From positions 1,984,001 through 2,048,000 of the forward strand of contig NZ_CP141614.1 in NCBI RefSeq assembly GCF_035593265.1: a stretch of 64,000 nt of DNA, given 5' to 3'. A program made the translations under genes and the position numbers. How positions within the stretch are numbered: position 1 is the stretch's first letter; each line of letters starts with the position of its first letter. Below, piece after piece: positions 11,925-44,147 of the stretch. The notes below the pieces were generated by a model that saw nothing but the letters and a program-made list of their open reading frames with translations, was not told where the DNA came from and ran no database searches. The stretch is from Limnochorda sp. LNt. GTDB lineage: Bacteria > Bacillota > Limnochordia > Limnochordales > Geochordaceae.

Positions 11925-12974
11925 CTAACGGGCCCTCGCCGCACCCAGCGGGCCTCCGGCCTCAAACCGGCTCTCGCCCCACTCAACCAGCCTCTGCCCC
12001 TCGTCGTACCCGTGCGGCAGGCGCACCCGAAAGACGGTGCGGCGGGCAGATGGGTCGCTTTCGACCTCGACCTGGCCCCCGTGCGCCTCGGCCAGCATGC
12101 GCACGATGGCGAGGCCCAGCCCTGTGCCACGGCTCGAGCGGCCCCGAAAGCCCCGCTCGAAGACCATGGGCAGCTCCTCGGGCGCGATGGGGTCGCCGTC
12201 GTTGGCCACCTCCAGGCACCAGGCGAGGAGGGCGGCGCCGCTGCGGGCGTCGGCGCCGCCTCCCGGCTCGGCAGCGTGCAGCCGCACGGCGATCTCGTGG
12301 ACGGGGCCAGCGTGGTGGAGCGCGTTGTCCAGCAAGTTGGCGACGATGCGGGAGACGGCGGTGGGATCGGCGAGGGCGGGCGCCGGCTGCGGGGGCAGCT
12401 CCAGGGCCAAGCGGATGGCCCGCTCCTCCAGCGCCTCTCGAAACGGCTCGCACGCCCGCCGCACCACCTCGCCCAGATCCGTCGGCTCACGTCGCACGAC
12501 CCCGTCCCCCGCCTCCAGCCGGGTCAGCAGGAGCAGGTCATCCACGAGCCGGCCCAGCTGGGCAGCGCGGGCGGCCACGACGTCGAGGTGGCGGGCGGGG
12601 TCGCGGCTGGCGCCCGTGCGCAGGGCCTCGACGTACCCGATGATGGAGGTGAGCGGCGTGCGCAGGTCGTGGGAGAGGTCGGCCAGCAGGCGGCGGTAGG
12701 CTTCGTCGCGGCGCAGGCGCTGGATGCCGCTCTCCTCCAGGCGACGGGCCAGGTCGTTGAGGGCCGCAGCGAGGCGGCGGGCCGGGGGCGGGGCGTCGGG
12801 TGCATGGAAGGCGCGGACGGCGACCTGGCCCTCCGCCAGGCGCTCCACCACCGCCCGGGCGTCGTCGAGGGCCCGGGCGAGGGCCCGGGCCCGCCAGTGG
12901 GCCCACAGCGCCCACACGGCGGCGACGACCGCCACCACAGCCAGCGCGAGGCTCGACTCGACGGAAGCGGGCAT
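11925..12974 (-). CDS. Membrane sensor histidine kinase, no adjacent response regulator
   Basis: About 349 residues. One N-terminal transmembrane helix (SLALAVVAVVAAVWALWAHW) is followed by a coiled linker. The phospho-acceptor box is LADLSHDLRTPLTSIIGYVE (histidine in SHDLRTP), then the ATPase N box VANLLDNALHHA and the G2 box GTGLGLAIVRMLAEAHGG. There is no periplasmic sensor of any size, as in intramembrane-sensing kinases such as BceS/LiaS types. Starts at 12986 or a TTG at 13010 are possible; the ATG at 12974 has GGTGGGA upstream. A response regulator would normally be next to it, but none is seen on either side; the 700 bases upstream hold only palindromes. Confidence 0.88.
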   Translation of the reverse strand: MPASVESSLALAVVAVVAAVWALWAHWRARALARALDDARAVVERLAEGQVAVRAFHAPDAPPPARRLAAALNDLARRLEESGIQRLRRDEAYRRLLADLSHDLRTPLTSIIGYVEALRTGASRDPARHLDVVAARAAQLGRLVDDLLLLTRLEAGDGVVRREPTDLGEVVRRACEPFREALEERAIRLALELPPQPAPALADPTAVSRIVANLLDNALHHAGPVHEIAVRLHAAEPGGGADARSGAALLAWCLEVANDGDPIAPEELPMVFERGFRGRSSRGTGLGLAIVRMLAEAHGGQVEVESDPSARRTVFRVRLPHGYDEGQRLVEWGESRFEAGGPLGAARAR

Positions 12975-13203
12975 CGGTCCCACCATCGATGCAATACCCT
13001 GCCCAGACAAGACTCCCGGGCACCGCCTCCCGCTCGGGAGTCATCTTGTGTCGTGCAACCCCACATCATTTCACACGATGGAGCCTGGAGACAGGTGGCC
13101 CCGGGTACGCCCTTGCGCTGGCGTTAGCGTAACGCGCCCTCACCTCTCGAGGTACGCCCAAGCAGCGGTCGTGCACGAAGGCATCCCGGTCGAGCGCGTA
13201 GGG

Positions 13204-13227
13204 GTTTTTAAATAGCTATTTAAAAAC
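13204..13227. repeat. Palindrome A, copy 1
   Basis: A perfect 24-base palindrome with the core TTTAAATAGCTATTTAAA, in sharply AT-rich contrast to its surroundings. The same core is present at 20306-20339. It lies about 230 bases upstream of the kinase start and 260 bases from palindrome B. Possible operator or DNA-structural site. Confidence 0.85.
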
Positions 13228-13476
13228 GGCCTACGTGCGAACCCACCGATGACGTCCCGGCAAGTGGTACACCATCACCGGGGACTACAGCAACTCACCC
13301 CTTGCCTCACGCCCCGCCCCCCGCTCACGGCGCTCGCTGCGGGCCTCGCCGGTACCGCGCAGGGCTGTCGTCGCCGTGCCGCAACGACCCGGCGCCCCCC
13401 TGTCGCCGCCCTGCCGTCGAGGCTCGTCGCCGCTGCACCGGGGCGCTCGTCGAGGCCGTCGGCGAGGGTCGGGCCC

Positions 13477-13498
13477 CATTTCAACGATCGTTGAAATG
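13477..13498. repeat. Palindrome B, copy 1
   Basis: A perfect 22-base palindrome with the core TTCAACGATCGTTGAA. It is 179 bases before the dipeptide-binding protein start. The same core occurs at 20536-20559. The form suits an operator for a dimeric repressor. Confidence 0.85.
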
Positions 13499-13676
13499 CG
13501 TGGCGAGCGTTATCGTGCCGTGTGCCCGCCGCCACGCCGCCTCCGCCACTGCTCGGCAGCGGATACGATTCTCTCCTGCCCCTCACCAGGATCTGCCCTT
13601 GCCCCGTCGAAGACCGACCCCACACCCAGCCGGACTGGTTATGAAACTGTCTACTCGCAGAAGAGGGGGCGAGACC

Positions 13677-15332
13677 GTGAACCGGGCCCACCGACAGTCG
13701 GACTGGCGCAGTCCGTGGAGTCGTCTCATGATGGGGGTCGTCGCTGCCGCCTTGGCGGTCGCCGTCGGGGCGGCCCTCGTCGCGACCGGGTCGGCCATCC
13801 CCGCCGCCGCGGCCACGCCTCGCGACACGCTGGTCATCGGCATGTCGACCGGCATCCTCATCACGCTGGACCCGGCCGCGGTGTACGAGGTCGAGGGGGC
13901 CGTCATCGTCGACCAGCTCTACGACAAGCTGGTGGAGCTGGCCATGGTCGACGGTCATATCGAGGTGGTGCCCGAGGCCGCCGAGACGTGGCAGCTGGCC
14001 GACGACGGCGTGACGTGGACCTTCTTCATCCGGGAGGGGATGCGTTTCCCCAGCGGACGGCCCATCACGGCGCATGACGTGGAGTACTCCATCCGCCGCG
14101 CCGTCCGCCTCAACCGCGGTCCGGCGTGGCTGCTCAACCAGATCGGCTTCACGCCCGACAACGTCACCGACACGGTGCGGGCCCTCGACGAGCGGCGCCT
14201 GCAGCTCCGGGTCTCGCAGCCGTTCGCGCCCAACCTGGTGCTGTCGATCCTGACGTTTCCGCTGACCAGCATCGTCGACCGCGAGGTGGTAGAGGCCCAC
14301 CTCACCGCCGGCGACCTCGCCACCGACTACCTCAAGGATCACAGCGCCGGCTCCGGTCCCTACCGCCTGGTGCGCTGGGAGCCCAACCAGATCGTCGAGC
14401 TCGAGGCCAACCCCACCTACTGGCGGGGCGCGCCTCCCATCCGCCGCATCATCATCCGTGACATGCCCGAGCCCTCGGCCCAGCGCCTGGCCATCGAGCG
14501 CGGCGACATCGACGTCGCCTGGAGCCTCACGCCGCTCATGCGCAAGGAGCTCACCGCCCAGGGCCGCACCGACCTGCGGGTGGTGCGGGTGCCGGGCCAC
14601 GGCATCGAGTACCTGGCCATGAACGTCAAGTACGAGCCCCTCTCCCACCCCAAGGTGCGGGAGGCCATCCGCTGGGCCATCGACTACGACGCCATCCTCG
14701 ACGACATCTTGCTGGGCGAGGCCATCCCGCTGCAGACCTTCATCCCGACGGGGTACTTCGGGCACAACCCGGCTCGCCCGTACACACGTGACGTCGAGCG
14801 GGCTCGCCAGCTCCTGGCCGAGGCCGGGTATCCCAACGGCTTCGCCGTGGAGCTGGTGACCAACACGGGCAGTGCGACCCGGGCCGACGTGGCCCAGATC
14901 ATCCAGAGCAACCTGGCCGACATCGGCATCCGCGTCCAGATCACCCTCATGCAGGCCGGGCCCATGTACGAGAAGTACCGGGAGCAGGGTCTGCAGATGA
15001 TCGTGGCGGGCTGGGGCGTCGACTACCCCGACCCGGATGCGCTGGCCAAGCCGTTCGCCGACGGCAGCGTGCGGCAGCTGGCCTGGCGTAACGCCTGGTA
15101 CGACGAAGAGGCGACGCGCCTGACGGCCGAGGCCATGGTGGAGCGCAATTCCCAGCGCCGCCAGGCCCTCTACCAGCAGCTGACCGAGCTGGTGCTGCAT
15201 GAGGGGCCGTTCGCCATCCTCTACCAGCCCGTCAACGCCTGGGTCGTGCGCAGCAACGTGCAGGGCTTCGAGGAGGCGGCCGCCCTCGGCACCATGCACT
15301 TCGACATGACCCGGGTCCGCAAGGCCGGATGA
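13677..15332 (+). CDS. Dipeptide/oligopeptide ABC transporter substrate-binding protein
   Basis: About 551 residues, SBP family 5. The GTG at 13677 follows an AGAGGGGG site; an ATG at 13641 adds 12 residues without a ribosome site. The signal sequence has basic residues and then a hydrophobic run (MMGVVAAALAVAVGAALVAT) ending AAAA. Family features: ETWQLADDGVTWTFFIREGM, the YSIRRAV region, GSGPYRLVRWEPNQIVELEA, ANPTYWRGAPPI, REAIRWAIDY and LLAEAGYPNGF. It would bind peptides outside the membrane for the DppB/DppC permease. No ATPase genes follow in this window, so the complex must borrow them from elsewhere. A strong hairpin follows the gene. Confidence 0.93.
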   Translation: MNRAHRQSDWRSPWSRLMMGVVAAALAVAVGAALVATGSAIPAAAATPRDTLVIGMSTGILITLDPAAVYEVEGAVIVDQLYDKLVELAMVDGHIEVVPEAAETWQLADDGVTWTFFIREGMRFPSGRPITAHDVEYSIRRAVRLNRGPAWLLNQIGFTPDNVTDTVRALDERRLQLRVSQPFAPNLVLSILTFPLTSIVDREVVEAHLTAGDLATDYLKDHSAGSGPYRLVRWEPNQIVELEANPTYWRGAPPIRRIIIRDMPEPSAQRLAIERGDIDVAWSLTPLMRKELTAQGRTDLRVVRVPGHGIEYLAMNVKYEPLSHPKVREAIRWAIDYDAILDDILLGEAIPLQTFIPTGYFGHNPARPYTRDVERARQLLAEAGYPNGFAVELVTNTGSATRADVAQIIQSNLADIGIRVQITLMQAGPMYEKYREQGLQMIVAGWGVDYPDPDALAKPFADGSVRQLAWRNAWYDEEATRLTAEAMVERNSQRRQALYQQLTELVLHEGPFAILYQPVNAWVVRSNVQGFEEAAALGTMHFDMTRVRKAG

Positions 15333-15388
15333 GCCGGATCGACGGAGCGCCCGGCAGGCCCTGACAGGGGGGCTCTCGCACGAGCGCA

Positions 15389-15430
15389 GGCGGCCGGAGC
15401 CGGGCGTGGGTACGGCCGGCTCCGGCCGCC
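15389..15430 (+). terminator. Intercistronic hairpin between binding-protein and permease genes
   Basis: A perfect 15-base GC stem (GGCGGCCGGAGCCGG with its complement at 15416-15430) and a 12-base loop, with no following T-run. Its position after the binding-protein gene is typical of hairpins that stabilise the upstream message or reduce read-through so the binding protein is made in excess. Confidence 0.6.
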
Positions 15431-15494
15431 CCATACCTTGGCGGCGACCGGAGGCGGCGTCGCCGGCAGAGGGGAAGCCATCCATCCCGTGAGC

Positions 15495-16499
15495 ATGGCC
15501 CAGTTCGTGGCACGCCGGCTGGTGCTGATGGCCATCGTCCTGTTTGGGGTGCTGGTCATCACCTTCGTCGTGTCGCACGTCATCCCCGCCGACCCGGTCG
15601 GCGCCATCCTGGGCGGCAACGCCCCGCCCGAGAAGGTAGCGGAGCTGCGCCGCCAGCTCAACCTGGACAAGCCGCTGCCCCAGCAGTTCGTGACGTACCT
15701 GGCGGGGGCCGTGAGAGGCGACCTGGGGCGGTCGCTTCGCACCGGGCGGCCGGTGACCGAGGATATCGGGCGCTTCTTCCCGGCGACGCTGGAGCTGGCC
15801 CTGGCGGCCACGCTGGTGGCGCTGGCGGTGGGCATCCCGTTGGGGGTCGTCTCGGCCGTCGGGCGCAACCGGCTGCCGGATCACGTGGCCCGGGTGCTCT
15901 CCATCGTGGGGGTATCGATGCCGGTCTTCTGGCTGGGGCTGGTGCTGCTGCTGGTCTTCTACTTCCGCCTGGGGTGGCTGCCCGGCAGCGGGCGGCTGGA
16001 CCTCTTCACCATCGAGCCGCCACGGGTGACGGGGCTGCTGCTCGTCGACAGCCTGCTGGCGCGGGAGTGGGAGGCGCTGCGAAGCGCCCTGTCGCACCTG
16101 GTGCTGCCGGCGGTGGTGCTGGGCTTCTCGGCGACGGCCAACGTGGCGCGCACCTCCCGTTCCAGCATGCTGGAAGTGCTCTTCCAGGACTTCGTGCGCA
16201 CGGCCCGTGCCAAGGGCGTGCCCGAACGGGCGGTGGTGCTGCGCCATGCGCTGCGCAACGCCCTCATCCCCACGGTGACGCTGGTGGGGCTCATCTTCGG
16301 GAGCCTGCTGGAGGGGGCCGTGCTGACCGAGACCATCTTCTCGTGGCCGGGGCTGGGGCGCTACATCACGACCGGCTACCTGGCCCTGGACTATCCCGCC
16401 GTCATGGGCGGGACGCTCTACATCGCCGTCGTCTACAGCCTGGTCAACCTGGTCGTCGACATCCTCTACGCCGTCATCGACCCCCGGGTGAGGGTCTAG
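15495..16499 (+). CDS. dppB: Dipeptide ABC transporter permease DppB
   Basis: About 334 residues with six membrane helices. The N-terminus AQFVARRLVLMAIVLFGVLV and VSHVIPADPVGAILGG are the usual DppB/OppB start. Further features are LNLDKPLPQQFVTYLAG, GDLGRSLRTGRPV, and the cytoplasmic EAA loop ARTSRSSMLEVLFQDFVRTA with RAKGVPERAVVLRHALRNAL. The end is VNLVVDILYAVIDPRVRV. The stop TAG at 16497-16499 is directly followed by the ATG of dppC. Integral membrane channel half for peptide uptake. Confidence 0.95.
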   Translation: MAQFVARRLVLMAIVLFGVLVITFVVSHVIPADPVGAILGGNAPPEKVAELRRQLNLDKPLPQQFVTYLAGAVRGDLGRSLRTGRPVTEDIGRFFPATLELALAATLVALAVGIPLGVVSAVGRNRLPDHVARVLSIVGVSMPVFWLGLVLLLVFYFRLGWLPGSGRLDLFTIEPPRVTGLLLVDSLLAREWEALRSALSHLVLPAVVLGFSATANVARTSRSSMLEVLFQDFVRTARAKGVPERAVVLRHALRNALIPTVTLVGLIFGSLLEGAVLTETIFSWPGLGRYITTGYLALDYPAVMGGTLYIAVVYSLVNLVVDILYAVIDPRVRV

Positions 16500-17458
16500 A
16501 TGAAGGCCCCGACGAGTCCGCGCACCCGCGCAGGAAGGGGCGTCGCCGCTGCCATGTCGACCGCACCCCCCGCCGCACCTCGAGCCGCACCGCTGGGAGC
16601 GGTGCCCCGGGTGGCGCCCGGCGACGGCTGGCGGCGCCTGGCCCGGATCTGGTGGCGCAACCCGCTCAACGCCATCGGCTCGGTCATCATCCTGGGGCTG
16701 GTGGGGGTAGCCGTGGCAGCCCCCCTCATCGCCCCCTACGATCCCCTGCAGCAGGTGCTGAGCGAGCGGCTGCAGCCGCCCAGCGCCAGGCATTGGTTCG
16801 GTACCGATCAGTTCGGCCGCGACATCTTCAGCCGGGTCGTGTACGGCACCCGCATCGAGCTGCAGGTCATCCTCATCGTCTCGCTGCTGGGCAGCACGCT
16901 GGGGACGGCCGTGGGTTGGTGAGCGGCTACTTCGGGCGGTGGGTCGACGAGGTGCTGATGCGGCTCACCGACATCTTCCTGGCCTTCCCCAGCCTGGTGC
17001 TGGCCATGGCCTTCGCGGCGGCGTTGGGCCCGAGCCTGCCCAACATGATCCTGGCCATCGCCGTGGTGACGTGGACGCCGTACGCCCGGCTGGTGCGAGG
17101 CGAGACGCTGCGGCTCAAGAGCATGGAGTTCGTGGAGGCGGCCAGGGCGGCGGGGGCGCCGACGTGGCGCATCCTGCTGCGGCACATCCTGCCGCAGACG
17201 CTGCCGGTCGTGCTGGTGCAGGTGACGCTGCGCATGGGCACCGTCATCCTGACGGCGGCGGGGCTGGGCTTCCTGGGGCTGGGGGCGCAGCCGCCGACGC
17301 CGGAGTGGGGCGCCATGGTCAGCGACGGGCGCAACTACCTGGTGGACCAGTGGTGGATGTCGACGCTGCCGGGGCTGGCCATCGCGGTGACGGTGCTGGG
17401 CTTCAACTTGCTGGGCGACGGCGTGCGCGACCTGATGGATCCCCGCTTGAGGAAGTGA
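16500..17458 (+). pseudogene. dppC: Dipeptide ABC transporter permease DppC, frameshifted
   Basis: The first part (16500-16922) has the DppC N-terminal region: WWRNPLNAIGSVIILGLVGV, PHFGTD-type motif HWFGTDQFGRDIFSRVVYGT and LLGSTLGTAVG, and then hits TGA. From about 16920 a second frame continues the family exactly: SGYFGRWVDEVLMRLTDIFL, the EAA loop RGETLRLKSMEFVEAARAAG, and the end LGDGVRDLMDPRLRK. At 16908-16922 the sequence reads GTGGGTTGGTGA; one extra G (GTG GGG TTG GTG) would restore V-G-L-V-S-G-Y. So one base is missing from a G run, by mutation or sequencing error. If real, the peptide transporter is broken. Confidence 0.9.
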
Positions 17459-17547
17459 GGCGGGGGGGGGGCGGCCGGCGCCCCCGTCGGTGGCGGCTCT
17501 CGGTCGCACGAGTGTGCGGTAAGTGCACCGGCTCCCCCCATGCGAAA

Positions 17548-17575
17548 GCGAGGAGCGCCACGGGGCGCTCCTCGC
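17548..17575. terminator. Bidirectional hairpin between dppC and gerW
   Basis: A perfect 12-base stem, GCGAGGAGCGCC / GGCGCTCCTCGC, with a four-base loop, between convergent genes. On the minus strand it is followed by TTT, so it suits the end of gerW best. Confidence 0.65.
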
Positions 17576-17602
17576 CGTGCGAGGCCTGGTACAAGTCGGC
17601 CG

Positions 17603-18028
17603 TCAGGCCCCGGACTCGCCGGACGGGGGTTGCGAGGCGTTGCCGCCGCCCTCGGGCGAGCGCTTCGAGCCCCCCAGCTTCTGGGTAAGGGCGGGCACCA
17701 GCTCGAGGAGCTTCTCCAGGCCGCCGCCCCGACCGCCCAACGAGTAGACTCGCAGCTCGCCGTCGACGACGGCGGCCAGCGCCGTGGGCACGAGCCGCAT
17801 GCCGAGTCCGCCGCCGCCACCGGAGCCTTCGCCGGTCATCTTGCCCTCGCTGACGGGGCCCGTGCCGCTCCCGCCGCCGGCGCCGATCCCTACCGAAGCG
17901 GTCATGATGGGGATGAGGGTCACGTTGCCGACCTGGAACGGCTCGCCGATCACCCGGCGGGTGGTCATCATCCGTTCGACGTTGTGCATGAGGGTGTCGA
18001 TGAGGGCCGCCACGTTGGTCTCCGCCAT
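17603..18028 (-). CDS. gerW: GerW family sporulation protein (YtfJ)
   Basis: 141 residues. The start VAALIDTLMHNVERMMTTRR and then VIGEPFQVGNVTLIPIMTAS match GerW/YtfJ, a forespore-made protein needed for normal germination in Bacillus. The middle has the usual glycine-rich stretch and the end of the domain is GMRLVPTALAAVVDGELRVY. The C-terminal tail is low-complexity. The gene is 60 bases downstream of the DUF2953 gene, the same neighbour as in Bacillus (ytfI-ytfJ). It is the best evidence here for an endospore-forming relative of Bacillota. Confidence 0.92.
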   Translation of the reverse strand: MAETNVAALIDTLMHNVERMMTTRRVIGEPFQVGNVTLIPIMTASVGIGAGGGSGTGPVSEGKMTGEGSGGGGGLGMRLVPTALAAVVDGELRVYSLGGRGGGLEKLLELVPALTQKLGGSKRSPEGGGNASQPPSGESGA

Positions 18029-18088
18029 GTCAATCCGCTCCTTTCGATGGGCGCCGTCCGCTGGGGCGGCGCCAGACCAAACGACTGC

Positions 18089-18853
18089 TCAGGTGCCGCC
18101 CGACGGGGCCGATCGGGGGGCGCCAGACACGCGCCTGCGCAGGCGGCGCCACCGCCTGCGCCACCAGCGACTCAGCGCTCGCCTCACCAGCCGGCGGGCC
18201 GGGCGGCTCGTGGCGAGGCGCATGCCGGCCCCCACGGCCCGCCCGGGCCAGAGCCGCAGTCGCCCCTGCCACTCCATCTCCCACTCCTCGCCTCCCTCCT
18301 CGCCCGCCAGGGGCGGCCGCCCTGCCAGGGGCGGTAGCTCGATCACCTCGACCCGCCCCAGCCGTACGGGGATGCCTAACCCCCGAGCGGCACCCCCCAG
18401 CCCCAGCGCCCAACCGGCCACAGCCGGGTCGGCCACGGCAAGGCGAGGGACCTCGAGCGCCCGCACCTCGACCGACCGGAGCAGGCGCCGCACGAGCTCC
18501 GGCACCTCGGCCAGCCACTCCCGGGCGAGACGCAGCAGCCGCAGCGCCCCGGCGCGTCGAGCGGAAGCGGCGCCCTCGAGCGTGCGCGGGCGCCGTAAGG
18601 GCCGACCCTTAGCCGGGGCTCCCCCTCGCCTGCGAGCAAGCCTCGGCCAGCTCCGGCGAAGATGGGCCTTCCGCCGCCGCGGGTGCAGCCGCAGCCGGAA
18701 TCGCCCCAGTACCGTGGCCTCCAGCCGGTAGCGCCACTGCCCCCCGGTGCGCTCACCCCGGACGGTCAGGTCGACGGGGGCCAGGAGAGCCGCGGTGCCC
18801 GCCGCCACCAGCAGGCCCGCCAGCGAGAGCGCCGCGGTCAGGCCGGGGCCCAT
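18089..18853 (-). CDS. DUF2953 domain protein (YtfI-like)
   Basis: 254 residues from an ATG at 18853. A single N-terminal membrane helix (LTAALSLAGLLVAAGTAALL) is followed by a strand-rich DUF2953 region (LTVRGERTGGQWRYRLEATV, GRFRLRLHP). The remainder is very basic and arginine-rich, with LGLGGAARGLGIPVRLGRVE near residue 185. Function unknown; its partner downstream is gerW, so a spore or envelope role is likely by association. There is no stop codon in the same frame from 19513 to here, so a fused product with the zinc-finger protein is possible. Confidence 0.7.
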   Translation of the reverse strand: MGPGLTAALSLAGLLVAAGTAALLAPVDLTVRGERTGGQWRYRLEATVLGRFRLRLHPRRRKAHLRRSWPRLARRRGGAPAKGRPLRRPRTLEGAASARRAGALRLLRLAREWLAEVPELVRRLLRSVEVRALEVPRLAVADPAVAGWALGLGGAARGLGIPVRLGRVEVIELPPLAGRPPLAGEEGGEEWEMEWQGRLRLWPGRAVGAGMRLATSRPARRLVRRALSRWWRRRWRRLRRRVSGAPRSAPSGGT

Positions 18854-19513
18854 CGGCGTACGCCCTCCGAACCCGAACGGCGCCCTTCTCGCGCGCCCGG
18901 CACCATCCAGGCCGACGCCCGCCACGGCAACGTCCAGAGCATGCCTGGCGCCAGCCCGGCGAAGGGGGCAAGGCGCGCGAAAGGCCGCCCCGGCGGTGAC
19001 GGAAGGGATGCCGGAGATGGCGCCAGTGCCTGTTGCCATCTCCTGGCGAGGCGGCTGACCATGCCTCTCGTGCGGGCGGCGGCTCGCACGGCGCCGGTCG
19101 CCATCCCCCACGACCCCGCCAGCATGCGGCGGGCCACGCGGCCGCCGGCCCCAGGGCGGCCAGTCCCACTGCCGCCACAGGCCCGCCGGGCCCGACGCGG
19201 CCTCTCGGGATCCGACTCGCTCGTCGCCTGCCTGCCGGCCCACCCGGCCGGCCACCCGCCGCACCACCTGGCTGGCCACCTCGCTGACCACCTCACCGGC
19301 CGCTTCGGCCGCTGCCGCCGGTGCCACCGACGGTGCCTCCCCCCACCGCGCCGCCACCCAGCGCGCCACCGCCACGTGCTGGCCGACCCGCATCTGGCAG
19401 GCCGGGCATCGGCGCAGGTGTTGGACCAGCAGCAGGGTCGGCAGCTCCTGCAGCGTGCCGTCCGCCAGCTCCGCCAGCAGCTCCTCCGGCGGGCATGCTG
19501 TCCGGCTAACCAT
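18854..19513 (-). CDS. Zinc-finger anti-sigma factor, 3' end unclear
   Basis: The ATG at 19513 overlaps the sigma gene stop as ATGA, so the two are translationally coupled. The first 60 residues form a zf-HC2 anti-sigma domain: CPPEELLAELADGTL, then LLLVQHLRRCPACQMRVGQH with the HxxxCxxC zinc site. A helical stretch (AAGEVVSEVASQVVRRVAGR) follows and then low-complexity basic sequence. The frame never stops: it runs straight into the DUF2953 gene. Another frame ends at 18838, overlapping the DUF2953 start as coupled genes often do, so a frameshift is possible. No membrane helix is clear. Presumed to hold the upstream sigma factor inactive. Confidence 0.6.
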
Positions 19514-20121
19514 CACTCCCCCACCTCCTCGAAGAGCGCCCGCCGCAGCGCCTGCCTGGCCCGGAACACATAGGTCTTGGCCGTCCCCTCCGGCCACTCC
19601 CCGGCCGCCGCGATCTCGCCGTAGGAGAGTCCCTCGACCGCCCGCAGCCACAGGGCCGTCCGCCACTCGGCGGGGAGGCGGGCCCACGCCCGTTCGAGGG
19701 TGCGCAGCCCCTCCTGCAGCAGCACCTGTTGCTCGACGGCGCCGTCCTGCGAAGCCGCCTCGGCCGGCCGTCGGCCCTCGCGCTCGGCCGGCCCGTCGCT
19801 CGTGGCCGCCAGCGCCTCCCACGACGTCTCCCGCCGCTGCCGCAACCGGGCCTGCTCCCGCCGGTTGCGGCAGACGTTGAGCACCACCTGGCGCAGCCAC
19901 GGCTTGAAGGGCCGTTGGGGGTCGTAGCGGTGGAGCTGCGACGCCACCTGCAGCAAGGCATCCTGGCTCCACTCCTCGGCCAGCTGCGGTTCGCCGGCCA
20001 TCAGGCTGCACAGTCGCAGGACGTAGGGGTAGTAGGCCTCGAGCAGACGCTCCAGGGCCGCCCGGTCGCCGGCGAGCCAGCGCCGCACGAGCCGTCCTTC
20101 GCTCGCCTCGGGGCCCGACAC
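19513..20121 (-). CDS. ECF-type RNA polymerase sigma factor
   Basis: 202 residues. Region 2 begins LVRRWLAGDRAALERLLEAY and contains WSQDALLQVASQL and the -10 recognition stretch FKPWLRQVVLNVCRNRREQA. A variable glutamate- and alanine-rich linker follows. Region 4 is RLPAEWRTALWLRAVEGLSY, then GEIAAAGEWPEGTAKTYVFR, a helix-turn-helix that would read the -35. A cytoplasmic regulator, paired with the downstream zinc-finger anti-sigma gene. Its upstream region carries the second copy of the two palindromes. Confidence 0.93.
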   Translation of the reverse strand: MSGPEASEGRLVRRWLAGDRAALERLLEAYYPYVLRLCSLMAGEPQLAEEWSQDALLQVASQLHRYDPQRPFKPWLRQVVLNVCRNRREQARLRQRRETSWEALAATSDGPAEREGRRPAEAASQDGAVEQQVLLQEGLRTLERAWARLPAEWRTALWLRAVEGLSYGEIAAAGEWPEGTAKTYVFRARQALRRALFEEVGE

Positions 20122-20305
20122 CGGCCCGCCACCCCTCCCTTGCCCTCTACCCTGTCTGTACAGGCCAGGACCGGATTGGTTTCAGCTGGACACGCGCCTT
20201 CGGACACAGGCGAGAAGCCAGGTCCCCGGGGCACCCACTGACCATTTCGCGGCACAGGCGCGTCGCCTCCAAGGGGGCGCGTACAGGGGCATTCGGTTCG
20301 CCGCA

Positions 20306-20339
20306 TAGGGGTTTTTAAATAGCTATTTAAAACCCCCTA
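20306..20339. repeat. Palindrome A, copy 2
   Basis: A 34-base inverted repeat with one mismatched pair and the core TTTTAAATAGCTATTTAAAA flanked by GGGG/CCCC. The core is identical to copy 1 at 13204-13227, while the flanks differ. Confidence 0.85.
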
Positions 20340-20535
20340 GTGCGCGGACCGGCACCCACTCGCCACGCCCGCGGGCGACGGCACACGGCGATGGGCGTCA
20401 TGACAGGCTTCGTCGGCCCCGCCGATCGGCGCGAGTCGACGCTCCGGCGAAGGGGGGTGAGGGGAACAGGTGGTCTGGCCACGGCCTCGCCAGGTGCCTG
20501 GGATTGCGCCAGGCCCGCCATGACGGGGTCGGCAT

Positions 20536-20559
20536 GGTGTTCAACGATCGTTGAACACC
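20536..20559. repeat. Palindrome B, copy 2
   Basis: A perfect 24-base palindrome whose core TTCAACGATCGTTGAA equals copy 1 at 13477-13498. Outer bases differ but stay symmetric (GGTG/CACC here, CATT/AATG there), which argues for selection on symmetry. Confidence 0.85.
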
Positions 20560-20596
20560 GACACCCGACTGCCCTCGGGCCGGTCCCGGCGGCCGC

Positions 20597-21775
20597 CTAC
20601 TCCGCAGCCGCCGACTTTAGAGCCGTCGGCTTCATGCCAAACAGAAACCGCTTCAACCGGCTTCTCCTGACCAGCACCTCGTAGGCCACCAGCGTGAGCC
20701 CGCCCCCCACCACGCAGATGAGCGCCCACTTCAGGGCCACGCCCACCGGCCAGCGCACCACGAACCACCCGACCGCCACCAGCACCGTCTGGTGCAGGAT
20801 GTAGAAGGGGTAGGCCGCCTCGCTGGCATAGCGCAGCACCGGATGGGCGACGTCGAGGTGTGCGTGCGCCAACCCCACCAGGGCGATGACCCACGCCCAC
20901 CCATTGACCGTCTCCATGAGCCCGACCAGCAAGTCCCCGACCACCGACGAGGCCCAACCTGGCCGGCTCCCCCAGATGACCAGCAGCCCGGCGCTGGTGA
21001 CGGCGCCCACGGCCAGAGCGATCCGCCGGTGCCTATCGACGGCCCTCTGCCACGCCGCCTCCGACATGAGGACGTAGCCGTAGACGAACAGCAGCCAGTA
21101 GAAGAACGGGTTCTTGCCGCCTGCTTCGGGCAGGAGCTTCATCGCTGCCAGGGGCACCGCGAGCAACAGGATGGCCCCCGGCCTCCCGACCCAGCTCGCG
21201 AGCCGCCCGAGCCACCTCCGCCCCGCCTCCCCCCTCCAGGCGAGTGCGAGAGGCAGCACCGAGCACGAGATGACGAAGAGGAACAGGATGAACCACAGAT
21301 GCCCCGGCGTGAAACTCCCGAAGTATCCGGTCAGGTCACGGAAGTCACGGAAGTACCCGCCCACGAACTCGAGGTACGAAGCGGCGTACCCGGGCTCCCT
21401 CATCCGGGCCAGGTACCCTTGGGGCGGCACGATGACGAGGTTGCCGAAAAGGAAGGGAATGAGGAGGCGCCTGAAGCGTTCCGCCAGGTACCGGGACGGG
21501 TCTCTGCGGCCGAGGGAGAACCACGCCGCGCTCCCCGCGATGAAGAACAACAGCGGCATCTGCCACGGACCCATCAGCGCGACGAGGTAACTCAACCCGG
21601 CACTCGACTGGGCGTCTTTGACGTAAAACGGCTCCCAGACGTCGAAGATGCGGGCCGCATGGAAGGGGATCAGCAGCAGCACCGCCATGCTCCGCAGCCA
21701 GTCCAGGTCGTAACGCCGCGTCGCCCGGCCACCTGCTTCTCTCTCAAGCACAAGCGGTAGGCACAAGAGCAGCAC
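20597..21775 (-). CDS. Acyltransferase 3 family membrane protein
   Basis: About 392 residues with some ten membrane helices. RRYDLDWLRSMAVLLLIPFH near residue 20 is the acyltransferase-3 signature (the histidine of the R..D..R..A..L....H pattern). Next come MGPWQMPLLFFIAGSAAWFS, FRRLLIPFLFGNLVIVPPQG, LWFILFLFVISCSVLPLALA and, near the end, SEAAYPFYILHQTVLVAVGW. Such proteins transfer acyl groups to cell-wall, capsule or glycolipid sugars across the membrane. The acceptor is unknown. The first 18 residues are uncertain; a start nearer residue 20 is possible. Confidence 0.88.
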   Translation of the reverse strand: MLLLCLPLVLEREAGGRATRRYDLDWLRSMAVLLLIPFHAARIFDVWEPFYVKDAQSSAGLSYLVALMGPWQMPLLFFIAGSAAWFSLGRRDPSRYLAERFRRLLIPFLFGNLVIVPPQGYLARMREPGYAASYLEFVGGYFRDFRDLTGYFGSFTPGHLWFILFLFVISCSVLPLALAWRGEAGRRWLGRLASWVGRPGAILLLAVPLAAMKLLPEAGGKNPFFYWLLFVYGYVLMSEAAWQRAVDRHRRIALAVGAVTSAGLLVIWGSRPGWASSVVGDLLVGLMETVNGWAWVIALVGLAHAHLDVAHPVLRYASEAAYPFYILHQTVLVAVGWFVVRWPVGVALKWALICVVGGGLTLVAYEVLVRRSRLKRFLFGMKPTALKSAAAE

Positions 21776-30277: not shown

Positions 30278-31876
30278 CTAACCGTCTCGTGTCACCCTTC
30301 CAGCCACTGCCACCCCACCATCCGCATCTGCTGCGCCTGGGGCTCCCTTGCTCGTGCGCCCGCTGCCTCTCGGTGGGCAAGACGGTCCGGCGTCTGACTG
30401 ATCGGCCTCGCGGCCAGTCGACGTACAACGCCCATGCGAGACGTCCCCGGCCACGTCCGCGCCGAGTTCGGGCAGGAGGTTCTCCTGAAAGGCCTTGCGG
30501 CCCACGCGGAGCATCGCTTCCGCCAGTGGGCCGAGCTCGCCGAGAAAGCCCGGCGGTTGCGTGACGAAGGAGGCGAGCTGCTTCTTCTCTCGGGTCGTCA
30601 GCGGCACGGTGTTGGAGGCGCGGGCGAGTGCCCGTTGGTAATCGGCGGGCTCCATCCGCCACAGATGCAGGCGCTGCCCGTAGCGCACCTTGAGCGCCCG
30701 GGCGATCAGGATGCCGGGAAGGTCGAAATCACCGCCGTAGAGCATCCTCACACCCGCCCGGGCAAGCCTGTCCAGCAAGCCGTAAGCCGCCAGGGAGGGT
30801 TGCCCTGCCGTGCAGACGAGCGTCGGTCCTTCCGGATCCGAGAAGGACTCCGCCAGGGAACCGAAGACGCTGGGGTTTTCGACGATGAACGTGGGGTCGC
30901 TCGCCGCAACCTCGACCCAGCGCCGCACGGCACGCAACGGGTAGGCGATGGGTACACCAGCCTCCCGCACCCCCGTCACCAGCGGGTCCGACCGGCCATC
31001 CGTCAGGGTGGCAGCGCGCAGGTTGGCCACCAGTACCGTGCTCGAAAGGTCGTCTCGCGCCAGCCCGACCGCCGCCAGGATGGCTTCGCGGCGCATGGCC
31101 GGCGAATCGATGCCCGACAGGTCCAAGGCCAGCTCGGGCAGCAGGTCGGCCAGCGCCCGCTCCAGCAGCCGCCCCGCCTCCCGGTCAGGGTCCAGCGCAT
31201 GGGGGTCGCCCGTCAGGCTCGCCGCGAACACCGGCAGGCTCTCCTGACGGCCCCGCGGTCCGGGCAGGGAGGCGAGGGCCCTCGCCACGACCCGGGTAAC
31301 TTGGGGAAGAGGCGTTCCCACCCGGGCTGACGTATCGCCCTTCCCTTCGAACGCACGCCGAAGCCAGGAGAGGCTGTGGGCCGCCTGACCCTCCTGCAGC
31401 GCCGCCGCCCAGCGCATGGCCACGGGGTCATCGAGGGAGGCGGCCTCCTGTTGGATCGCGTCCAGAAGCCGCCCCCACGCCATAGCCCGGGCCTGCCGCC
31501 TGGCCGGCCGCGTGACGATGGGGCTGCCAAAGTACCCCTCGAGCAGCTCCGGCAGGGTGCATGCGAACCGGCTGGCCCGCAACGCCGCATCGAATCGACC
31601 CAGGTCCAGCGTCAGCACCGCCCCGCTGCCGTCCCCCGGGCCGACGCCTGGCCCCGCTCCGCCTGGCGAGGGCACCGCGCCGTCGCGCCGCAGGCGCCCC
31701 CGGTGCGTCCCCAGGAAGTCCCGCAACGCCAGCCGCTCTTCCTCGCTCAAGACCAGCCGCACCCGCCCGCCCACGCGGCCCAGCGACTCGTACCGCTGCC
31801 GGAGCGCCTCCAGGATGCGGGAAAACGGGCGCTGCCGAAAGTATCGGACCGCCTCGGCCAGACCCGGCTGCGCCAC
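30278..31876 (-). CDS. jetD: Wadjet-like JetD, TOPRIM nuclease subunit (DUF2399, TIGR02679-like)
   Basis: 532 residues. N-terminal stretch AEAVRYFRQRPFSRILEALR and SLGRVGGRVRLVLSEEERLA, then a helical middle (LPELLEGYFGSPIVTR). The C-terminal TOPRIM-like DUF2399 has FIVENPSVFGSLAE, PTLVCTAGQPSLAAYGLLD and LYGGDFDLPGILIA, with the acidic glutamate and DFD positions present. In Wadjet systems JetD is the nuclease that cleaves DNA held by the JetABC complex. The last 60 residues after LLPELGADV are low-complexity and may be read-through after loss of the normal stop. The start is seven bases after the JetC stop, last in a four-gene operon. Confidence 0.87.
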   Translation of the reverse strand: MAQPGLAEAVRYFRQRPFSRILEALRQRYESLGRVGGRVRLVLSEEERLALRDFLGTHRGRLRRDGAVPSPGGAGPGVGPGDGSGAVLTLDLGRFDAALRASRFACTLPELLEGYFGSPIVTRPARRQARAMAWGRLLDAIQQEAASLDDPVAMRWAAALQEGQAAHSLSWLRRAFEGKGDTSARVGTPLPQVTRVVARALASLPGPRGRQESLPVFAASLTGDPHALDPDREAGRLLERALADLLPELALDLSGIDSPAMRREAILAAVGLARDDLSSTVLVANLRAATLTDGRSDPLVTGVREAGVPIAYPLRAVRRWVEVAASDPTFIVENPSVFGSLAESFSDPEGPTLVCTAGQPSLAAYGLLDRLARAGVRMLYGGDFDLPGILIARALKVRYGQRLHLWRMEPADYQRALARASNTVPLTTREKKQLASFVTQPPGFLGELGPLAEAMLRVGRKAFQENLLPELGADVAGDVSHGRCTSTGREADQSDAGPSCPPRGSGRTSKGAPGAADADGGVAVAGRVTRDG

Positions 31877-31882
31877 CGCGGC

Positions 31883-34800
31883 TCACCGGCTCCCGTCCGC
31901 GGGGGCCTGTCCGTCGCGCGAACGGACGGTCGCCAGCCCGCGGCCGGCGTCCCCCGCCTCGGCGCCGTCCGCCTCCCTGCCGTCCACGGCCCCCGCCTCT
32001 TCGCTTACCAGCCGCCGCCCGTCCCACACGAACCACACGGGCGTGACCACGTTGCCGCCCTTCACGAGCTCGTACACCGAGCCGGCCGGCAGGGTCGGAA
32101 AGTCGCCCCACAGCTTCTCGCTGGTCATGATCCACGAAAAGCCCAGCCGGTCGAGCAGGCCGAACATCTCCCGCGTGTTGGCCTCGTCCACCCCCGCGAA
32201 CGCCTCGTCGAGCCCGATGAGCCGCGGCGCGTCCTCCGCCGCCCCCTGATACCGGGCATACGCCGCCGCCACCAGGGGGATGAACATCCGCAGCGACTTC
32301 TGCCCCCCGCTGCCCGCCGCGAACCGGGTGTCGGTCAGCTCCCGCTGCGGCTCGCCCGGCATGGCGCTCATCAGATGGAAGCGGAACCACTTCCGGTAGT
32401 CCAGCGCGTCGGCCAGCCCCTGGGCGAACACCACCTGGCTGTTGGGATCGCGGAAGCGCCGCCTCACCTCGTTGACCCGCCGCCTGAACTGCTCCACCAG
32501 CTCCCCGAACTCCGCGTCGGTCAGCGTCTCGGGGTCGCGCTGCAGCAATTCCACCAGGCGGCCCGGATCCTCGTGGGTCACCCGGTCCGCCGGCTTGGGC
32601 CGCCAGTGCAGGGTCAGCCGCTCCCCGCCCACCAGGGGGTGCTCCTTCAGAATCGCGTTGATGGCGTCCCGCCAGCGGTAGGCCATCTCCAGGCGGTTGC
32701 GGATCTCGTTGCCGGCGTCTTTCAGGATGATCTGCTCGTAGAGCTCCGTCTCCTTTTGCTGCAGGATCAGCTCGTCCCGGGCCTTTTCGTCTTTCAGCTC
32801 CGACTCCAGCTCGTTGGGCTGCAGCGCCACCCCCCGCCGCTTGAAGTAAAGGCGGTCGCCTTCGAGGATGGGCGGCAGCTCGACCAGGGTGATGCGGGCG
32901 TTTTGAAGGGATACGGTCAACTCCCGGAAGGCCTGCCGCTGGCTCTCCTCCACGCTCTCCCGAAGCCGGGCGTCAGCGGTACGGCGGAATTTGAGCAGGT
33001 CCTCGGCCGCCCTGGCCGGCCCGTCGGGGCCGCTCTCGAAGAGGTCGAGGGCGTGGCGCAGGCTCGGGTGGGCCTTCAGCCGGTCGTGCAGCTTCTCCCG
33101 GGCCTCGGCCTCCGCCTCGGCGGCGCGGTCCCGGCGGACGGCTGCCTCCTGCACCTGATGGCGGCAGTGCGTCACCTCGGTCTCCAGGGACCCCACCCGG
33201 GTGAGCAGCTCCTTCTCCTCCTTCTCGGCCGATGCCAGCTCGGCCTCCAGGCGCCTGAGCTCTGCCAGCAGCGCCTCGACCGAGACGCCCAGGCTGGCCA
33301 GCAGGTCCCGGCGGGCCGACACCTGGCCCTCCAGTTCCGCCACCTGCTCGCGGGCCGCCTTCAGCGCCGCCCGGTCGCCTTCCAGGCGCGAAGCCGCCTG
33401 GCTCCGGTCGGCGGCGGCCTGCCAGCAGGCGCCGGCCAGCCGCTCCTCGTGGGCCGACTCCCGGTCGAGGGCGTGAGCCTCCTGCATGACCTGGTCCGTC
33501 TGGTGGATGAGCAGCCGCACCCCATCTTCGTCGCGTCCCCGGGCCTCGGGCACGGGCCCCGTCGCCTCGGCCAGCGCCGCCCGGGCCGCCTCCAGCGCGT
33601 CGAACGCCTCCCGCACCCGCCGCGTCGCCCCGTCCAGCCGGTCCTGCTGCTGGCGCACGGCCTCCTCGGCCAGATCGAGCCGGTGAACGGCGTCATAAAG
33701 CGCCTGCCAGGCGGGCAGCGCTTCGCCCTGGCGCCACTTGCCCTCCAGGGCCTCCAGCTCGCCCCGAGTCCGGTCGACGGCCGCCTCGGCCTCCCACAGG
33801 TCCCGCTCCAGCTCTTGAAGTTGGGCCTGGAGCCGCTCCACCTCGGCCTGGCGGGTGCGGCGGCGGTTCTCCCGGCCCAGGTAGGCGGGGGCGCTGCTGG
33901 GTTGGGCCGAGCCCCGAAGCGGCCCCGCCCGAAAGCCCTCCGGCCCCACCGCCAGCGGGTAGGCGGACATATTTCCTGGGGAATGGGCCGAAGCGGCAGG
34001 TAGCCCGGCGGGGTGCCATCCCACGCTGCGCAGGGCCGCCTCCACGGCCGCCGCCCAGCGGGGATCCTCCCGCAGCGCCGGGTCCGGCTGCAGCACGTCC
34101 CACAGGGTCAGGGCCCCGGCGTCGCCCTCGGCGTCGCCGTTCCCGGAGGCGTCGGCGTTGGCCAGGACGGCAGAGCTGCCCGGCGCCAGCCACCGGTCGG
34201 CCAGCCCGGCCCCGACCAGTAGACCGGCCACCCGGTCGGCGTACTCCTGAGGGACCACCAGGGCGTCGAGCAGCCCCGCCTCGGCCAGGGCCTGCTCCAG
34301 CCGCCCCGCCGTCTCGCCGGCCACGGCCTGCCGCACTTCGCACGCCGCATACAGCGGCACGAAGGGAACGCCCGCCTCCGCCAGCAGGCGCCGGGCCTGC
34401 TCCTGCCCCGCCGAACGGGGCGGCTCCGCCTCCTCCTTGCCTGCCCACTCCTCGAGCGCCTTCGCCACCTCGTCTCGCCGCACGGCCAGCCGCTCCCGGG
34501 CCAGCTCCGCCTCCCTCAGGCGGGCCGCGATGCGGCCGGCCGCCCGGTCGAAGGCGGGGCGAAGGGGCTCCACCAGCTTCGAAAGCTCCGCTCCGTCCGC
34601 CGGGTAGCGGGCGATGGCTTCAAGGGCCGCCTCCCGCTCATCGGGCCGCACGTCGACCCCGCCGGCTCCCTCGAGCCACCCGTCGACGGCTCGGGCGGCC
34701 GCCTCCCTGGCGGCGTTCAGCGCCTCCCGGCAGCGCTCGGCCTCCCGGCCCCGTTCGAACAGCACCTCCCGCTCCCGATCCTCGAGCAGCCTCGCCTCCC

Positions 34801-36318
34801 GGTACTGCTCCTGCCGCCGGCGCAGCTCGCGCAGCGCCTCCAGGACCGCCCCCAGCGCCCGACGGCGGGCGGCACCCAGCTCCGACACGACAGGGGCCAC
34901 CTGCGGCAGGGCCGGCAGCCGCTGCTGGGCCGGGAGGCGCCCCGGCGCTCGTCGATGGCCCGCAGGAGCCCCTCGAGGGTCTGCACGCCCGCGGCCCACG
35001 CCGCCTCGACCGCCCGCCGCACCGTCTCCGCGGCGCGCGCCCGCACCTGGTCCAGGTGGCCGCGCCACTCCTGCTCGTGGGCCTGCAGGCGGGCCGTGAG
35101 GGCCTGCAGCTCGTCCTCCGAACGCCCGACCTCTTGCACCGCCCGCCGCTCCGCCTCCCTGGCCCGGTCGAGCTGCCCCTCCAGCCAGCGCAGCGCCTCG
35201 AGCCCCTTGAGGGCCTCGTGCTGCTCCAGGGCCGTCCTGCGGCTGCGAAGCTGGCCGATGGCGAGCTGCACCGCCTCCAGCCGGGCGCGCTGCTCGGCCA
35301 GCGCCCCTTCGGCCTTCGCCAGGGCTGCCGACGCCGCCTCGAGGCGGGCCACCGCCGCCCGGTACTCCCCCAGGGCCGCCTGGTAGTCGACCGCGGCCAG
35401 CTGGGCGACCTGGTTGAGGTAGGCCGCGTAGCGGGCGTTGAGATCCTCCACCACCTGCAACTGCCGCCGGGCCTCCTCCAGGGACTCCATGCCCTCGTCG
35501 ATGTCCCGGATGACCCGGGTCACCTGATCCAGCAACCCGCTCGGCAGCGGCGGCAGGGAGTCGGTCAGGAGTTCGCACAGCACCGACGGCTTGATGTCCC
35601 GGTTGAGCTTGGGGCTGCGCAGTTGATGGAGCAGCTCCAGCACAAACTCGTACTGCTCCACCTGCGGAAAGCCGAAGATGTAGCGGTTGACCAGCTCACG
35701 GTAGTCCGAGGCCCGCTCCACCACCCGGCCGCCGGGGCCCAAGAGCTCGGCCAGCTGGCGGGGCGCCAGCGGCTGGCCGGAGGGATCGACCAGGTCGAAG
35801 TCGAACCCCACCCGTCTCCCGTCGGTGACGACGAACCCCCAGAGGTCCACGGACTGGTCGACGCGGCTTCGGCTGGTGCGCAGCCCCAGCCCGATGGTGC
35901 GGTGCTCCCCGGTGCGGGCGTGCTCCAGCTCCAGCGCCACGTAACCGGTGCGGTTGTCGAAGTAGAACTCGCTGTCGGGCGTCGCCTCGGGGTCGCCCAC
36001 CAGGTAGTAGGCCAGGCCCCGGCCCTGCCCGCCGAACGGGTCGAGCCGCTCCCGGCGCTTCTCGGCATCCAGCACCAGCGTGATGGCGCTGACCAGGACC
36101 GTGGTCTTGCCGGAGCCGTTGGCGCCCCGCAAGAGCAGCCGCCCCTGGACGAAGTGGAAGACCTCGTAGTCAAACAGCCAGTAGTTGATGAGGATGAGCC
36201 GGCTGGGCCGCCACCCGCGGGGCCCGCCGGCCCCGAGCTCCTTCTTCAGCGCCAGCAGCGCCTCGGGCTGCCGGGCTTCGCCGAGCAGTTGGGGCCGTTG
36301 GAGGTCAGCGAGGGCCAT
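31883..36318 (-). pseudogene. jetC: Wadjet-like JetC, SMC-type ATPase (TIGR02680-like), frameshifted
   Basis: Would encode about 1478 residues. The ATG at 36318 overlaps the JetB stop by 14 bases and has an AAGGAGG site. Walker A LLRGANGSGKTTVLVSAI is near residue 50, followed by FGFPQVEQYEFVLELLHQLR. Long coiled coils come next (LEEARRQLQVVEDLNARYAA). The C-terminal half has AAGSGGQKSLRMFIPLVAAA and Walker B RLIGLDEAFAGVDEANTREM. The first frame is sensible to LLRAIDERRGA near 34945; the rest continues in another frame from PAQQRLPALPQVAPVV. One base is missing in the GGGGCGCC stretch near 34940. Without correction the ATPase halves are separated and the system would be dead. Confidence 0.9.
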
Positions 36319-37534
36319 GCGGCGACGTGCCTCCTTCGTCACCATCGGCCGTCGGCGGCTGCGTGGCCGCCCACGGCTCGTGGGCGCCGGTGTCCGCACC
36401 GTAGGCCGCGGCGTAGCGGGCCAGCGCCGGGTAGACGGTCAACTGGCCGTCGGCGTCAGGCCCCGTCACGAAATCCCACCCCCGCATGGCAGCCAGCACC
36501 TCCCGCACCAGCTCTGGCTCGCTCTTGCGGCCCAGCGTGGCCCCCCAGTTGGCCCCGTGGCGCTGGCGCAGGCGGCTCACCAGGTGGGCCAGTTGGCCCT
36601 CGCTGATGCGCAGTCGGTCGCAAGCGTCGGGCCGAAGCTCGCGCCGCCGCACGGCCGCCCGCAGCTCGGTGCCGATGAGGAGCACCACGTGGCCCAGCGC
36701 CCCGCGGATGGGAAACAGGTCCGGGTCGGCCGCCGCCGAGCCGGTCGGCCGCAGCACGGCCGCGAAGCTATCGGTCACCTCCAGGTCCCACCCCAACGCC
36801 TCCCGAAGGTCGAGGGCGATGCGCTCCCGGGCCTCCCGGCGGCGCAGCAGTTCGAAGGCCTCGGGGTCGGAGGCCCGGTACAGGGCCGGGTCGAGCAAGA
36901 GCGTGCGGTACAGCCGCTGCCGGGCGTCGCCCTGGCCGGGCAGCGGCACCAGGGCCGGCGGCACCTCAAAATCGGGCTCGCCCGCCCCGGGCGGCAGCTC
37001 CACCGTCAGGTACGACGCCAGCGGGGTAAACTCGTAGAGGGTGTCGCCCCGGCCGCTGGCCACCCACTCCTCGGTCTCCCCGTGTACCCGTACCAGCACC
37101 TGCATCGCCTCCAGACTCTTCAGCGCCCGGGCCATGGCAAGGCGGGTGGCGTAGCTGTCCCAGTCGATGTGGCCGGGGCCCAGCAGCACGTTGGCCCGGT
37201 GCTCGATCTCCTGGATGAGCTGGCTCAGCAGGAACTGTTCGGCGCCGTTGCTGTCGGCGAACCACAGCACCCACGTGAACAGTTCGTAATCCAGCGGCGA
37301 CTGCGCCCACCGAAACCCGTGGCCGGCGCTGGGCGCCGCGGGGATCTTGACCAGGCGCGCCAGCTCCCGGTTGAGCAGCACGGGCCAGCCGGTGCGGTCC
37401 GCGAACCACCGCCGGATGGGCTCCAGCGCTGCCCGGATGCGCCCGTAGGCGATGGGGTCCTCCCGGGCGAAGACGGCCGTGCGATCCACCAGGTCCACGA
37501 AGGCCCGCTGGTAGTCGGAGAGAGGCCGGTTCAT
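36305..37534 (-). CDS. jetB: Wadjet-like JetB (DUF2398, TIGR02678-like)
   Basis: 409 residues. The ATG at 37534 overlaps the JetA stop as ATGA, which fixes the start. Stretches such as YQRAFVDLVDRTAVFAREDP, GRIRAALEPIRRWFADRTGW and LVKIPAAPSAGHGFRWAQSP match the DUF2398 pattern. FTWVLWFADSNGAEQFLLSQ and LVHLVSRLRQRHG-type helices follow toward the end. In Wadjet complexes JetB is the MukE-like partner that bridges the kleisin JetA and the SMC JetC. The C-terminal 25 residues are low-complexity. Confidence 0.87.
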   Translation of the reverse strand: MNRPLSDYQRAFVDLVDRTAVFAREDPIAYGRIRAALEPIRRWFADRTGWPVLLNRELARLVKIPAAPSAGHGFRWAQSPLDYELFTWVLWFADSNGAEQFLLSQLIQEIEHRANVLLGPGHIDWDSYATRLAMARALKSLEAMQVLVRVHGETEEWVASGRGDTLYEFTPLASYLTVELPPGAGEPDFEVPPALVPLPGQGDARQRLYRTLLLDPALYRASDPEAFELLRRREARERIALDLREALGWDLEVTDSFAAVLRPTGSAAADPDLFPIRGALGHVVLLIGTELRAAVRRRELRPDACDRLRISEGQLAHLVSRLRQRHGANWGATLGRKSEPELVREVLAAMRGWDFVTGPDADGQLTVYPALARYAAAYGADTGAHEPWAATQPPTADGDEGGTSPHGPR

Positions 37535-41732: not shown

Positions 41733-42452
41733 CCGACCGCGCCTCCGCTCCCCGACCCGCCGCTGCTCGTCACACGCCGATGAGTCCTTGCCACTCCGGT
41801 AGATGCTCCCGCACGAGCGCCTCCAAGACACCGGGCCCTCGTTCGCGGGCCCTCCCGGCCGAACCCTTCGGCCGCCTGACCTGCAACCAGGTCTTGATGA
41901 CCGTCGTCGCCGCCTCCAAGGGAAAGTCGGGCGCCCACGCCAGCACCGGATGTTCGTCATTCCGCTGGCGCTTGCTCCAATGTCGCAGGCGGTAAAGGCC
42001 CACCAGGATCCCCCGGCACATCTCCAGCGCCTGCTCCTCCATGCCCAGTTCGGCATAGCGGGTCATCTCGTCGACGAAGGGCTGAAGCGCCTCCTCAAGG
42101 AGTTCCCAGGCAGCGTCGTCGGGAGACGTGTAGCCCCACCGGCTGGGTCCTGCCCGGGCATTCAACTCGTCAAGGCCTGGAAGGCGTAGCTCCGCTTCTA
42201 CGTCGTCAGCGACCCCCTCGAAGCTTACTTTCGATATCAGCGTCCTGGCGATTCCTTCCGCCTCCGCGACTAGTACTACGTCCCACAAGTTCGTTCCCTG
42301 GACATGACGGCTCCTTGACAACCTAAACCGGCACAGCCGGGCAAGAAATTTCGCAGGGCAGCAGGAGTCCGGCCGAAGGGCGCGAACTGGCGCCACGACG
42401 GGATCCGGAGACGTTCGCGGGGGTCAAAGGTGACCCGGAAACGGCTGCCCGT

Positions 42453-43898: not shown

Positions 43899-44147
43899 CC
43901 GCATCTTCCTCTCGCTCCTCTTGTGACGTTCCCGCGGCAGTGAACGAACTTGTGGGACGCACTACTAGTACTACGTCCCACAAGTTCGTTCCCTGGACAT
44001 GACGGCTCCTTGACAACCTAAACCGGCACAGCCGGGCAAGAAATTTCGCAGGGCAGCAGGAGTCCGGCCGAAGGGCGCGAACTGGCGCCACGACGGGATC
44101 CGGAGACGTTCGCGGGGGTCAAAGGTGACCCGGAAACGGCTGCCCGT

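Follow-up and report, generated by a model that had tools for sequence, protein, structure and literature searches.

Ordered pairs of two palindromes in the Limnochorda sp. LNt chromosome, a candidate family of protein-binding elements

Two palindromes in the window

Two short palindromes of different sequence, here named A and B, lie in the same order upstream of a histidine kinase gene and upstream of a sigma factor gene of Limnochorda sp. LNt, which raises the question of what kind of element such a pair represents. We studied them in a 64-kb stretch (the window, positions 1984001-2048000 of the single 3,019,339-base contig) and then in the whole genome. A preliminary description of the window had placed the palindromes in these two intergenic regions, and the positions proved exact and the matches far above chance: the longest perfect palindromes of the 64-kb window are exactly these four A and B sites, each core occurs twice in the 64 kb with up to three mismatches allowed, and dinucleotide shuffles of the window gave 0.00 (A) and 0.05 (B) expected matches.

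In copy 1 the A module spans 13171-13260 on the positive strand (genome 1997171-1997260), with a conserved stretch of 36 bp at 13198-13233 and a perfect palindrome of 24 bp at 13204-13227. Its B module, also in the positive strand, occupies 13459-13522 and contains a perfect 22-bp palindrome (13477-13498) with the core TTCAACGATCGTTGAA at 13480-13495; the spacer between both sites runs from 13234 to 13476. The copy 2 A module lies at 20277-20369 (positive strand; genome 2004277-2004369), with the conserved 36 bp at 20305-20340, and its B module at 20506-20576 (positive strand), with a perfect 24-bp palindrome at 20536-20559 and a spacer at 20341-20535. The A palindrome of this copy had been given as 20306-20339; only the 20-bp core at 20313-20332 is perfect and the rest is imperfect flank. 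The centre spacings of 272 bp (copy 1) and 225 bp (copy 2) are as previously described, and the spacers of both window copies could not be aligned with those of other copies.

Copy 1 is bordered on its A side by the histidine kinase gene (HisKA and HATPase_c domains; 11925-13010, negative strand), whose start codon faces A, and on its B side by a gene for a peptide-binding ABC protein (SBP_bac_5; 13302-15332, positive strand) whose true start is probably near 13728, downstream of the copy 1 B. Copy 2 has on its A side the gene of an ECF-type sigma factor (Sigma70_r2 and r4; 19513-20121, negative strand), again with the start codon facing A, and on its B side an acyltransferase gene (Acyl_transf_3; 20597-21775, negative strand) whose stop codon is ~41 bp from the B core.

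Pairs in the genome and searches among relatives

A genome search allowing up to three mismatches gave 11 A and 11 B sites, and two further divergent A cores (2086745 and 2119893) were recognized by reading around unpaired B sites, so that the genome holds 13 A and 11 B copies. A sequence profile of A recovered the same 13 copies plus one marginal match at 1347435 (E=0.08). Counting both cores in the genome, a check that the preliminary description had proposed, revealed ten A-B pairs, as compared with ~0.03 expected by chance, and left three A and one B alone; the scatter of unpaired copies that it had named as evidence against its reading was not seen. Order and relative orientation of A and B were identical in all ten pairs, with centre spacings of 165 to 298 bp (mean 242, sd 45).

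All the copies fall within two arcs of the chromosome, 1.318-1.403 and 1.997-2.187 Mb (hereafter, the two districts), which add up to 275 of 3019 kb (9%). The pairs of the first district start (A/B) at 1318200/1318386, 1324855/1325112 and 1403411/1403114, the last one reversed. Those of the second start at 1997207/1997480, 2004314/2004540, 2086745/2086911, 2119893/2120154, 2121644/2121937, 2159259/2159525 and 2187076/2186871, the last one again reversed. Unpaired A sites start at 2155346, 2167401 and 2175704, and no B better than background was found near them; the unpaired B starts at 2156529. Note that A 2155346 and B 2156529 (2155346-2156544) keep the usual order at a distance of 1.2 kb and enclose a gene for a HEPN-domain protein. 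The second district also contains an AT-leaning palindrome, GGTTTTGATGGTCATCAAAACC, at genome positions 2125169-2125192, unrelated in sequence to A and B.

Searches among relatives with the A profile gave nothing convincing in 17 genomes, which included a same-genus genome (in 800 contigs) and same-family and same-order genomes. The exact B core was found in none of 397 other genomes of the phylum, and with up to two mismatches there were single imperfect matches in 2 of 13 relatives. Absence from close relatives, which the preliminary description had taken as an argument against its own reading, was thus observed in the same-genus, same-family and same-order genomes tested, and it indicates that the system is lineage-specific, not an ancient conserved one. 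The sigma factor operon is syntenic in two same-family genomes; homology ends ~40 bp upstream of the sigma start codon, that is, before the element, and therefore no clean empty site can be read at this locus.

Conservation of the cores and likeness to known repeats

Judged by information content, A reaches from about -18 to +18 (~36 bp), has an AT core with a variable dinucleotide at its centre and consists of the inverted half-sites WTTTAAATA-SS-TATTTAAAW with GC-rich outer arms. B, with the sequence ATTTCAACGATCGTTGAAATG, extends from about -10 to +11 (~21 bp) and has a weaker CGGGGT ~20 bp from its centre, on the side facing A. The arms of A are consistently, if slightly, asymmetric (the distal one GG-T/A-TTTTAAA, the proximal one often AAATTCC), and asymmetric B copies carry an AATG flank distally, i.e., away from A. 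The bases next to the cores had been said to differ between copies and yet stay symmetric, as in binding sites or structured DNA. This holds for the B copies of the window, but when all copies are considered, arms from the same copy are no more alike than arms from different ones: at positions 9-20, the match was 0.503 within and 0.484 between copies for A (p=0.34), and 0.355 within and 0.380 between copies for B. Since covariation within copies is absent, a hairpin or cruciform under structural selection was rejected, and the proposal of structured DNA is not supported; the sites would be read as double-stranded half-sites rather than be maintained as hairpins. Structured RNA was also rejected, as the spacers are unalignable and the Rfam covariance models run on window positions 12900-20700 gave only sub-threshold matches at chance level, none of them over the palindromes.

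Between copies, the spacers cannot be aligned except in two duplicated pairs, and the B core is kept in full (16/16) in 7 of 11 copies. In the duplicate 1318200/1324855 the spacers were 63% identical (103/164), with 28/36 matches in A and 20/21 in B; in the duplicate 2119893/2121644 the values were 69% (168/243), 32/36 and 19/21. Because the cores are better kept than the spacers in both duplicates, these sequences argue for continuing constraint on the cores and disfavour a uniform decay of dead insertions. Cores that outlast the spacer in distant as well as in duplicated copies, together with the ten ordered pairs, lend support to the earlier suggestion that A and B may be binding sites under selection. 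The first duplicate belongs to a segmental duplication (1318200-1326000) that comprises an ArsR-type gene and the A-B element together with parts of the gene for an FeS protein, its second copy being truncated. In the second duplicate, the ~70% identity is limited to the element (about -28 to +44 around the cores) and the flanks are unrelated.

We tentatively favour, at slightly less than an even chance, the explanation that the A-B elements form a lineage-specific family of composite elements, bound by protein as double-stranded DNA, that would have spread by copying, kept their cores through selection and modulate adjacent promoters. Each element would consist of a putative A site and a putative B site ~165-300 bp apart in fixed order and orientation. 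Copying may have proceeded by segmental duplication and/or transposition, after which selection would have kept only the A and B sites. One or two dimeric DNA-binding proteins of the lineage are predicted to bind A and B, and the bound proteins together would form a nucleoprotein complex, most likely one that modulates the neighbouring promoters; a DNA loop between A and B is a guess. Copying and subsequent selection on two dimer-type sites would account for the fixed order and polarity, the conservation of the cores only and the unalignable spacers.

Decayed non-autonomous mobile elements (MITE- or BIME-like), with A and B as ends recognized by a transposase or recombinase and hence with conserved-looking cores, are an unlikely origin but one that several results fit. 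The ~13 copies in fixed order and orientation imply descent by copying, the homology of 2119893 and 2121644 covers the element only, both window copies adjoin points where synteny with relatives ends, and GC content in the districts is slightly below that of other genome samples. Dead copies, however, should decay evenly, and in both duplicated pairs the cores surpass the spacers; elsewhere B is often 16/16 next to spacers that cannot be aligned. Moreover, neither palindrome is an inverted copy of the other, no target-site duplication is apparent to the eye with the element limits roughly given by one duplicated pair, and no transposase was found between any A and B, the 1.2-kb pair holding the HEPN gene instead. 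The sole transposase looked at, in the window, has different ends.

The window carries, at 42269-45663, two identical tandem IS copies with a period of 1,695 bp and a DDE_3 transposase (372 aa, positive strand). Where the two copies abut, their ends make up a long palindrome (about 43938-43995), which was rejected as a source of A or B on account of its different sequence.

Comparison with known systems showed that REP/BIME, MITE, matS, replication terminators, parS/Noc and RNA families each depart from the A-B elements in at least one tested feature. Like BIMEs and REPINs, the elements are lineage-specific and consist of short palindromes that lie between genes, in ordered pairs interspersed in one genome. 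REP sequences, though, are hairpin-forming repeats of 20-40 nt that share a single sequence, carry a GTAG or CGTC tag and are mutually inverted and closely spaced, whereas A and B differ in sequence, are 165-300 bp apart and present neither loops nor covariation. As non-coding intergenic units of ~300-400 bp, multicopy and apparently spread by copying, they are also reminiscent of MITE, BOX, RUP and ERIC elements; MITE copies, in contrast, have a common interior and terminal inverted repeats, and A-B elements have an unalignable interior and two unrelated palindromes as ends.

The B word has a counterpart in other bacteria. A search of 84,980 species (the own genome perhaps left out) found the exact B 18-mer in 27 stretches of unrelated organisms, none of them with an A nearby. 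In the three stretches whose ORFs were read, the 18-mer flanks a TetR-family gene (family assigned by eye), which suggests that the word can serve as an operator elsewhere. The TetR-family operator TTTCAACGATCGTTGAAA of Woeseiaceae and other proteobacteria has the same 16-18 bp core as B; it lies beside its own TetR gene and has no A, whereas here B is paired with A and no such TetR was seen. In seven contigs from Woeseiaceae and other proteobacteria, several B-like palindromes occur within about 0.7-1 kb, and those flanking a TetR-type gene in two such contigs are probably the operator set of that regulator.

It might also be proposed that A and B are two ordinary operators of unrelated transcription factors whose target genes coincide by chance, a proposal that we regard as very unlikely. 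It would agree with the TetR genes flanked by the 18-mer in several proteobacteria and with the regulators among the A-side neighbours (ArsR, sensor kinase, sigma factor, ROK and IclR). Nevertheless, ordinary regulons are not confined to 9% of a chromosome, nor do they keep two operators in fixed order and orientation at ten unrelated loci. In addition, the four TetR_N matches of the genome (three over the cut-off and one weak) include two that were read, both with other recognition helices, and a TetR reader of B in this genome is not supported by these sequences.

Neighbouring genes, chromosomal position and possible function

All the copies are intergenic according to a simple, purpose-written hexamer gene caller. 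In 11 of 13 copies the neighbour's start codon is turned towards A, 155-514 bp away, a weak bias (P=0.02 against other long intergenic regions) that depends on this home-made gene caller; B faces starts and stops about equally. The neighbours are functionally unrelated: ArsR, FeS protein, SDR, sensor kinase, sigma factor, formamidase, GH28, DinB, ROK, IclR, 2-hydroxyacid dehydrogenase and a citrate-type transporter. Copy 2121644 sits between convergent genes, whose promoter cannot be its target, and a simple promoter scan from A to the start codons revealed no common sigma-54-like or strong sigma-70-like site.

Control of the adjacent promoters by one or two lineage-specific proteins would be the most economical function for the composite protein-binding elements proposed above. 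This is weakened by the unrelated neighbours, by the copy between convergent genes and by the regional confinement, which is odd for an ordinary regulon. Against it are also the widely variable distances from A to the start codons and the A-B spacing of the ten pairs, which showed no helical phasing (Rayleigh p about 0.3).

With dnaA at 56 kb and the sign change of GC skew between 1.54 and 1.60 Mb, the skew places the terminus at about 1.54-1.60 Mb. The districts flank it asymmetrically, at about -250 to -170 kb and +430 to +620 kb, and no copies occur within ~165 kb of it, the nearest sites being those at 1.403 and 1.997 Mb. When 11 independent loci were placed at random 200,000 times, none of the placements was this tight, by a statistic chosen after seeing the data. 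The A-to-B polarity is positive for most copies on both arms, with one minus copy per arm.

Such a distribution would suit chromosome-organizing or domain-marking sites bound by a nucleoid protein in two districts either side of the terminus, which we consider improbable. The tight confinement, the position of the districts on both sides of the terminus and the unrelated neighbour genes are in its favour, but the empty region around the terminus, the asymmetry of the arcs and the lack of opposite polarity on the two arms are not. The sites are, unlike those of known organizing systems, absent from all the relatives tested, and the three ParB-like genes of the genome are far off. Somewhat differently, A and B might together serve as docking sites for a nucleoprotein system peculiar to the lineage, which would mark or organize the two districts largely independently of neighbour function and would have arisen within one species or genus; we hold this to be quite improbable too.

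Palindromic or paired sites enriched in terminus-proximal parts of the chromosome are also a property of matS/MatP and of Ter/Tus and Ter/RTP. A matS-like system was rejected because A and B are not densest at the terminus and are restricted to the lineage, and a polar fork trap of replication terminators because polarity is not opposite on the two replichores. The parS/Noc sites have a consensus different from the sites described here and are distributed either ori-proximally or genome-wide; this candidate was discarded as well, with ParB-like genes at 62, 64 and 300 kb and B sites only at 1.3-1.4 and 2.0-2.2 Mb.

A literature search for the A and B words retrieved nothing, copy 1 had no match in plasmids and copy 2 none in phages. 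The exact B 18-mer was absent from viral contigs; an A 18-mer had matches in 8 of them. The elements represent a clean case of two short palindromes that stay nearly unchanged, with order and direction fixed, while the intervening DNA is completely turned over, and this pattern recurs across both districts of the same chromosome, beside genes of unrelated function. It suggests a DNA-binding system that we did not find described in any of the papers, phage records or plasmid records searched, and A and B are short and perfect enough for direct pull-down.

Elsewhere in the window, positions 30278-39393 (negative strand) encode a Wadjet type II anti-plasmid system, with matches to JetA2, JetB2, JetC2 and JetD2 in order, and positions 47884-52821 a very large helicase-nuclease (DUF4011, MTES_1575) whose best PADLOC match was PDC-S37, a candidate defence gene.
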